Shown: in pieces, positions 46,286 through 47,421 of the stretch
How the letters are laid out: each line of letters begins with the position of its first letter
Position numbering within the stretch: the first letter of the stretch is position 1
DNA from: Elusimicrobium sp. An273
GTDB taxonomy: Bacteria > Elusimicrobiota > Elusimicrobia > Elusimicrobiales > Elusimicrobiaceae
DNA length: 64,000 nucleotides
Assembly (NCBI RefSeq): GCF_002159705.1
Contig: NZ_NFJD01000002.1
Location: 62,001 to 126,000 of the forward strand
Direction: 5' to 3'
Notes under the pieces: model-generated
Seen by the model: the letters and a program-made list of their open reading frames with translations, nothing else
The model's database searches: none
Told to the model about the DNA's origin: nothing
Made by a program: the position numbers and the translations under genes

Positions 46286-46777
46286 TTAAAACTCCCAAAC
46301 CGTTTCATCCGTGCTGGAACTTAATTTTTTGCCCCCCAAAGAAGAACAGAGAGATTTTCCTTTGTCATCTCTTCCAATGCAAATTCGTTTATTTAAACGG
46401 GCTTGCGTTCCCCCGTAGCTTGGGCCTACTAATTGAATGACGTAAGAGGTGCATCCTCCGCGAATCGGGCACACATACGGATTTCGAATTCCTTCATCAA
46501 AATTGTAAAAATAGTATTTTCCCGTACATTCCAAACCGTCCACACAGTCCAAGCTGTTTAATCCTATGGACAAATCATCCAAAGTACAGGTGTCGCTCTC
46601 TCCTTTTTCCAGCTCACATACGGCAGCAGCATTTTGAATGGTCTTCAACAAAGAAAGCGCCTCTGCCGCACGGGATTTTTCTACCGCTTTTTCATACTGG
46701 GGCAGCGCCACCGCGGATAAAATGCCAATAATTAATACTACAACCAATAATTCTATCAACGTGAAGCCTTGTTGCAT
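46286..46777 (-). CDS. Type IV pilin-like protein, 163 aa
   Basis: ATG at 46777 follows AAGGAG. Leader MQQ, then the prepilin site G-FTLIELL and helix LVVVLIIGILSAVALPQYE, almost identical to the 21540 pilin over the first 35 residues. The globular part differs entirely and holds eight Cys (e.g. CVDGLEC, CPIRGGC), suggesting a disulfide-stabilised head. Divergent from the RNA gene at 46893. Confidence 0.9.
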   Translation of the reverse strand: MQQGFTLIELLVVVLIIGILSAVALPQYEKAVEKSRAAEALSLLKTIQNAAAVCELEKGESDTCTLDDLSIGLNSLDCVDGLECTGKYYFYNFDEGIRNPYVCPIRGGCTSYVIQLVGPSYGGTQARLNKRICIGRDDKGKSLCSSLGGKKLSSSTDETVWEF

Positions 46778-46858
46778 AGAAATTCTCCTTTTCAAGAACT
46801 ATATATACTATATCAAAAAAATTCTATTAAGCCCTCTCTCCGACGGTAAAATTACCCC

Positions 46859-46886
46859 TTGAAAAGTTTTAAATTCCGCCTATACT
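46859..46886 (+). promoter_or_regulatory. Promoter of the noncoding RNA
   Basis: TTGAAA (46859-46864), 16-nt spacer, TATACT (46881-46886); predicted start near 46893. Confidence 0.65.
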
Positions 46887-46892
46887 ATCCAT

Positions 46893-47368
46893 ACAGGAAG
46901 TAAGTCCGTAGGCCCTGCCGGGGGCTGCTTGGTAAGCGGACAAAAGCGGTGACGTGAGGCAGTGTTGCTGTTGTTGTAAAGGTGCCGAGCCGGAAGAAGT
47001 TGGCCTGTGCGCTAGGGAGAGCCAGGATGGTTGGGTTACGTAACTGTCCGGGAGCTTGGTAAGGCATGGGGCCGGACGTATCTGGCCGCGGACGGGGCAG
47101 GGCGCTAAGTGTTGTTCCGTCTGGAAGTTAGGGCGCCGACGCGGAGACGTAAAGCGGTGTAGTGCGGCAAGAGGGTTACGTCGTACAAAGTCGTGTATAG
47201 CGGGTTTCCGGCGGTTGATGTAATTGCTTCGGCCGAGTGGAAACGAGAAGCGGCATAAGTCCCGGTGTAAGTTGGTTGGGCCTATCCTGAGAGCAGTAGA
47301 TAAAGCAGTGAAGGAGTGAGAATGGAGACGTCAAGATGAACCCCTCGGTTTGAATAACCGGGGGGTTC
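46893..47368 (+). ncRNA. Unassigned large structured RNA, about 475 nt
   Basis: A 630-nt gap between two protein genes holds no plausible CDS but has a promoter, dense perfect helices and a terminator-like end. Helices seen: GTCCG/CGGAC 46904-08/46937-41 enclosing GCCCT/GGGGC; GTCCG/CGGAC 47046-50/47089-93 enclosing GGCCGGA/TCTGGCC; GGCGC/GCGCC 47101-05/47133-37 with TTCC/GGAA inside; GACGTAA/TTACGTC 47146-52/47176-82; GCTTC/GAAGC 47226-30/47247-51; terminal hairpin 47338-47367. I looked for RNase P conserved regions, the tmRNA acceptor end and tag, the SRP GGAAGCAG loop and a 6S bubble and found none. It could be a strongly diverged RNase P RNA or a new RNA class. Confidence 0.7.
47338..47367 (+). 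terminator. 3' hairpin of the noncoding RNA
   Basis: GAACCCC-CGGTT/AACCG-GGGGTTC stem with a TGAA loop; the tail (CCGCTTTATA) is U-poor, so the next hairpin may do the actual termination. Confidence 0.55.
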
Positions 47369-47382
47369 CGCTTTATATCCTT

Positions 47383-47413
47383 AAAAACCCAGTGCCTTGG
47401 CACCGGGTTTTTT
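47383..47413. terminator. Bidirectional terminator
   Basis: AAAAACCCAGTGCC/GGCACCGGGTTTTTT between the RNA gene and the convergent lipoprotein gene. Confidence 0.88.
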
Positions 47414-47421
47414 GTAAGAAA

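Follow-up and report, generated by a model that had tools for sequence, protein, structure and literature searches.

The window analysed here (the whole stretch of 64,000 nucleotides) contains a gap of 626 nt (46796–47421) in which a promoter is followed by G-rich sequence that holds no credible coding frame and then by an intrinsic terminator, and the question was what kind of gene occupies it. In an earlier note on this DNA the gap had been read as an independently transcribed, highly structured RNA of about 475 nt that was either a strongly diverged RNase P RNA or a new large RNA class.

Extent and neighbourhood of the RNA gene

The gene was delimited by the following features:

46859–46886, + strand: sigma-70-type promoter TTGAAA-16-TATACT, recognised from the sequence and from column conservation over 58 loci
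46893–47368, + strand: structured RNA of about 476 nt (start predicted at about 46893) that runs through the terminator stem, with full-length homologs and without an Rfam match
47338–47368, + strand: intrinsic terminator with a 13-pair stem that starts inside the stop codon of a mini-ORF

Over the 58 loci, the columns of the −35 element TTGA and of the −10 element TATACT came near 2 bits, as against about 0.2–1 bit in most flanking columns, and the promoter named in the earlier note was thus found in place. The terminator hairpins that it listed were upheld in part: the stem at 47338–47368 ends the RNA, and the second hairpin (about 47386–47413) sits where the convergent lipoprotein gene ends and shows no conservation together with the RNA, so that the RNA proper is taken to run from about 46893 to 47368 plus a U tail. 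The absence of a credible CDS was confirmed with an alignment of 12 close homologs, in which 93 of 94 indels were not a multiple of three; they break any frame, and a protein-coding gene on either strand was ruled out. Stop-free frames of 108–146 codons (stop to stop) are seen in the close homologs on the minus strand of 46893–47372. These are noncoding because of the same indels; they stem from the composition of the RNA, and automatic gene callers may annotate them. Judged by its sequence, 46893–47368 (+) is an RNA gene that stands alone, with a sigma-70-type promoter and a terminator of its own and without a long ORF, and its predicted length of about 476 nt agrees with the length first proposed.

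The usual gene order (glyS, RNA, convergent lipoprotein gene, lipA) was kept down to about 47% glyS identity. At five loci (L114, L116, L117, L119, and L125) the RNA was inverted within the same interval between glyS and the lipoprotein gene, which indicates that the RNA gene was flipped in situ during evolution. Since it is convergent with or inverted relative to its neighbours, it has no constant downstream gene and is to be regarded as a gene of its own. The type IV pilin-like gene (N_methyl motif; 46286–46795, − strand) separates glyS from the RNA only in some species, and this patchy occurrence suggests repeated insertion or loss. The description of the RNA as flanked by pilin and lipoprotein genes and not by phage genes was accordingly adjusted: the pilin gene is incidental, the lipoprotein gene (with lipA) and glyS are the conserved neighbours, and the lack of a phage connection stands, a signature pattern of the RNA (see below) being absent from IMG/VR.

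Known families, consensus fold and distribution

The search against all of Rfam that had been proposed was run with Rfam 15. The window RNA gave no match at the gathering thresholds and matches at chance level only at a permissive threshold, and five further loci (distant homologs or members of a second family described below) gave no Rfam match. The RNase P RNA of the genome (RF00010, one gene per genome) was found on another contig (G000:C1:127836–128180, 209 bits, E = 1.3e-68), which refutes the proposal of a strongly diverged RNase P RNA in the window. The tmRNA gene (RF00023) was likewise found on another contig (C1:238881–239227), and no tRNA or tmRNA was called by ARAGORN at the window locus, which gave no tRNA-like domain. 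For 6S RNA (RF00013), a long hairpin of about 180 nt with a central bubble as against the multi-branched fold of about 476 nt in the window, no match was obtained in the genome at E up to 10. No covariance-model match above the gathering score was obtained for OLE, ROOL, GOLLD or the rest of Rfam 15. It is thus highly improbable that the window RNA is a diverged RNase P, tmRNA, SRP or 6S RNA. The size range would fit such a molecule, and a 6S match to Rfam is missing genome-wide, but high-scoring RNase P and tmRNA genes exist elsewhere, the window RNA found no Rfam partner even at permissive thresholds, and it is too large and too differently built for 6S or SRP RNA. The comparison with OLE, ROOL and GOLLD RNAs in the earlier note is valid for size and structuredness alone.

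When folded as a single sequence, the stretch of 521 nt reached −209 kcal/mol (z = −3.4 against dinucleotide shuffles) and was more stable than all 100 dinucleotide shuffles on either strand, a result that by itself is weak evidence; the decisive evidence is comparative, drawn from aligned sequences rather than from a single folding energy. A consensus fold was computed with RNAalifold from the 13 closest sequences. It is multi-branched, with a closing helix P1 that joins the 5' and 3' ends, a long helix P2 and several hairpins, and includes the following elements:

46908–46914, + strand: 5' strand of the closing helix P1 (GUAGGCC), pairing with 47279–47285 (RNAalifold consensus, 13 homologs)
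46916–46930, + strand: 5' strand of P2, pairing with 47248–47254 and 47260–47267, with several two-sided changes
47203–47244, + strand: signature hairpin domain, in which a covarying outer helix (47203–47209 with 47239–47244) surrounds the conserved GGUUGAUGUAAUUGCUUCGGCC (47213–47234)
47279–47285, + strand: 3' strand of P1 (GGCCUAU; RNAalifold consensus, 13 homologs)

Over the 109 body pairs of this alignment, 97.7% of the cells were paired, and the value fell to 34–48% when the partners were slid by 1–3 columns. Two-sided changes were counted in 27 pairs (shuffle mean 8.4 ± 1.9, maximum 16) and in 54 cells (13.8 ± 3.8, maximum 25; 300 shuffles). P1 is nearly invariant within the group of 13 homologs, so that covariation there speaks neither for nor against it. 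In an alignment of 55 rows the covariation score of the 3' domain was 0.418, compared with 0.162 ± 0.009 after shuffling and at most 0.119 after sliding, an effect size that is somewhat flattered because the rows were aligned by fitting them to the model itself and one of them is false (a reverse-strand terminator match). In the signature hairpin, UUGA and UUCG are kept around a short loop, and the outer helix changes freely. Covariation strongly supports the predicted fold, and the claim of a highly structured RNA with several helices was borne out.

Homologs were collected by a DNA search of 100 related genomes, which returned 11 full-length relatives (80–98% identity) and several short matches; most of the latter proved to be diverged copies of the same gene (350–530 nt), all of which have a terminator and a TTGA(C)-TATACT promoter. 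Homolog length, estimated automatically, ranged from 213 to 536 nt (median 429), with a folded body of about 290–480 nt. Two covariance models were used: R1, comprising the 3' 155 nt, and R2, a second model without the terminator. Matches of R1 that covered the terminator only, together with L122–L124 and L126–L128, were discarded on inspection. R2 detected the RNA in 54 of the 341 Elusimicrobiota genomes (E ≤ 5e-4), with one match in each and all of them in the window's own genus, and three more genus members (G003, G027, and G059) were recognised by eye; by R2 and inspection together, a homolog is present in at least 57 of the 66 genomes of this Elusimicrobiaceae genus. The 275 other Elusimicrobiota genomes gave no match. 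Outside the genus the best R2 matches (E of about 0.002–0.007 over 235 genomes) corresponded to chance expectation, and the glyS-flanking regions of other genera carried no mini-ORF tail. The signature loop pattern GGTTGATGTAN{1,2}TGSTTCGGCC matched 33 stretches of the GTDB genome collection, 29 of which were Elusimicrobiota or gut metagenome contigs; the four matches in other phyla showed nothing convincing in the RNA model and look like chance. The pattern was not found in IMG/VR, by which a phage origin was ruled out. On this comparative evidence the RNA forms a new class that has been detected in one gut-dwelling Elusimicrobiaceae genus only; the second of the two initial proposals, a new large RNA class, is supported by the lack of an Rfam match for the window RNA and the distant homologs tested and with the strong covariation.

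The mini-ORF tail and a second RNA that carries it

The terminator of the RNA tail had been named in the earlier note, and the mini-ORF directly before it (47322–47339) had been overlooked. The tail comprises:

47311–47316, + strand: Shine–Dalgarno sequence AAGGAG, complementary to GGATCACCTCCTTT, the canonical 3' end of 16S rRNA in this genome
47322–47339, + strand: mini-ORF AUG GAG ACG UCA AGA UGA (M-E-T-S-R), whose frame, start and stop are kept in 43 distinct versions

Every homolog with a readable tail has a Shine–Dalgarno sequence, an AUG, a few codons, a stop and a terminator stem, and in nearly all of them the distance between the last base of the stop and the start of the stem is about −2 to +3 nt. 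The 43 distinct versions have five codons (36 versions), six (4), eight (2) or four (1) and end in TGA (28), TAA (8) or TAG (7). None contains an internal in-frame stop, as against 25 versions with stops in the +1 frame and 17 with stops in the +2 frame. The 43 versions encode 40 peptides that share no residue beyond Met. Changes were counted by parsimony on a glyS and lipA tree that was built from 53 rows by a quick method and has many weak forks: the identity of the stop codon changed at least 10 times, always to another stop, the length changed at least three times, in all cases by whole codons, and residues 2–5 underwent at least 68 changes. T occupies 10 of 181 second codon positions versus 41 of 181 third positions, and its rarity at second positions is a reading-frame signature that makes the peptides hydrophilic. 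The predicted unpaired fraction was 0.60 for the Shine–Dalgarno sequence, 0.58 for the AUG and 0.59 for the ORF, versus 0.34 for the body; the tail is accordingly predicted to be single-stranded, purine-rich and more open than the body. In the versions that encode METSR, an overlapping ATGA frame runs into the terminator and is not conserved. Translation of the mini-ORF, as inferred from these patterns, is supported as strongly as comparison alone allows, short of demonstration.

The genome was scanned for tails of the same design (Shine–Dalgarno sequence, AUG, 3 to 9 codons, stop, terminator) over contigs C1–C5, about 1.49 of 1.50 Mb. Three sites were returned: the window RNA, C3:159071 and the tail of another terminator. 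The third scan hit, at C5:20378, resembled a mini-ORF but was rejected as a conserved hairpin. The site at C3:159071 is the tail of a different RNA of about 400 nt, which has its own promoter, the mini-ORF MEESTR and a terminator:

G000:C3:158685–159110 (about 1261–1690 of L183): second RNA gene with a tail of Shine–Dalgarno sequence, AUG, 6 codons, stop and terminator, with an HTH_3 protein gene upstream of it

A DNA search of 101 genomes gave matches to this second family in 16 (among them 15 further members of the genus), covariation was present, and the mini-ORF mostly has six codons. Its body showed no clear similarity by eye to that of the glyS-linked RNA, and its comparison with Rfam gave sub-threshold matches only. 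Its mini-ORF and that of the short glyS-linked versions have AGAGUCGAC in common, a hint that the tails descend from one ancestor. A further conserved RNA was observed at G000:C5:20321–20534 (− strand; L272); it measures about 150 nt, has a promoter and a terminator and is present in 44 of 49 genomes of the genus (74–100% identity). It has no Rfam match and may be either the 6S RNA not found otherwise or yet another new class. For the window RNA, we conclude from the comparisons above that it represents a new RNA class with an obligatory, apparently translated mini-gene.

Possible functions and comparison with known systems

The reading that we tentatively prefer, at somewhat less than even confidence, is that of an independently transcribed, structured RNA acting in trans, in which translation of the mini-ORF places or holds the folded body at the ribosome. 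Ribosomes would initiate on the mini-ORF at the 3' end of the RNA. Counted from the A of the AUG, the terminator stem of the five-codon versions begins at about +16 to +21, which is the leading edge of an initiating ribosome, and a stem at this position would permit loading and then force elongation into the hairpin. The loaded ribosome would elongate straight into the stable terminator hairpin and end translation at the foot of it; peptidyl-tRNAs tend to drop off the ribosome at an early stage (PMC10192219). The act of translation rather than the peptide would be the purpose: the free sequence of the peptide argues against a peptide function, and ribosome engagement is favoured because the peptide varies freely at fixed length and position. 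The folded body might thereby be placed or held at the mRNA-exit side of the small subunit, and an RNA tethered in this way could serve as a regulator or as a ribosome-sequestering element. The two eight-codon versions and the mostly six-codon second family indicate that the distance to the AUG can vary, and what stays constant may be the adjacency of stop and hairpin. Put more generally, and about as tentatively, such large RNAs may be obligate clients of the ribosome, in which a five-codon decoy gene and a terminator roadblock dock a ribosome on the 3' end, the body acts on or from the translating ribosome, and at least two separate families of this one genome share the tail.

Alternatively, the folded body alone could act (as a protein scaffold, as an RNA–RNA regulator or in an assembly like those of OLE, ROOL or GOLLD), with the mini-ORF serving for nothing but control of the RNA: a ribosome on its 3' end would shield it from 3' exonucleases or tune its decay. 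This is rather unlikely. The large covarying body, with its fast-evolving length (213–536 nt, median 429), and the position of the mini-ORF exactly at the 3' end, where decay starts, speak for it; however, ordinary terminator hairpins already protect 3' ends, and, the second RNA excepted, essentially no other terminator of the genome carries such an ORF. A regulator that pairs with specific mRNAs or with rRNA as an antisense RNA is improbable. It would be compatible with a stand-alone structured RNA acting in trans, but exact complementarities of at least 14 nt in the genome numbered five, versus 3–6 for the shuffled RNA, and complementarity to rRNA never exceeded 10 nt (exact matches; short imperfect seeds lie outside this test).

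In a further reading the pentapeptide itself would be the product, for example a formylated signalling peptide, with the RNA as its regulated mRNA; the strong Shine–Dalgarno sequence, hydrophilic peptides that vary from species to species in the manner of signals, and the HTH_3 regulator gene adjoining the second RNA would suit this idea. It is nevertheless quite improbable, given 40 peptides in 43 versions with only Met shared, a glyS-linked RNA without a neighbouring exporter or receptor, and a covarying body of 430 nt that a five-codon message does not need. A cis-regulatory leader or attenuator with leader peptide and terminator would have the classical arrangement of a leader ORF and then a terminator, but the probability is very small: in the window and in most homologs the following gene runs convergently, the five inverted loci contradict it by synteny, and the reading was rejected since the required co-directional downstream gene is missing.

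OLE, ROOL and GOLLD are large, intricately folded, stand-alone bacterial RNAs, the function of ROOL and GOLLD being unknown (PMC12286853). The window RNA resembles them in all three respects and differs in being chromosomal and syntenic beside glyS rather than phage-linked, and in having no Rfam match. To our knowledge, no OLE, ROOL or GOLLD RNA ends in a conserved mini-ORF. With tmRNA it shares the design of a structured, stable RNA bearing a very short ORF that is, in the window RNA, presumably translated; in contrast to tmRNA, its ORF has its own Shine–Dalgarno sequence and AUG and stands at the extreme 3' end before the terminator, and ARAGORN finds no tRNA-like domain. Dual-function sRNAs (RNAIII, SgrS, VcdRP) are likewise regulatory RNAs that also carry an ORF, and their proteins are tens of residues long (29 aa for VcdRP; PMC8672173), whereas the window RNA has five codons of free sequence in a fixed place. 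Of the characters by which such sRNAs are judged, promoter, structure and comparative evidence of translation are present, and regulatory targets were not found in the complementarity search. Pentapeptide minigenes (the E-peptide ORF of 23S rRNA, the lambda bar minigenes) also have few codons between start and stop; their short peptidyl-tRNAs are prone to drop-off, E-peptides favour hydrophobic residues, and these minigenes are not conserved parts of a dedicated structured RNA. The window mini-ORF is similarly short but encodes hydrophilic peptides and lies inside such an RNA. Leader-peptide attenuators share the short ORF followed by a terminator, but the window RNA lacks a downstream gene in the same direction and exists in inverted copies.

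Large structured RNAs and dual-function RNAs are each an already known kind. Searches of the open-access literature (most subscription papers were outside their scope) gave no description of an RNA such as this one in Elusimicrobia or elsewhere, and a large RNA class is hereby added to a phylum for which these searches gave none. We regard the RNA as a new kind because the class has no detected relative and because we know of no precedent for an obligatory mini-gene in a structured RNA. Bacterial 'noncoding' RNAs are usually kept apart from messages; here, the translation of a few codons is itself a candidate functional part of an RNA machine, because the mini-gene has a near-constant length, a free sequence and a fixed place in nearly all members of the genus and in two RNA families. 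The arrangement of RNA and mini-ORF suggests ribosome engagement as the working mode.
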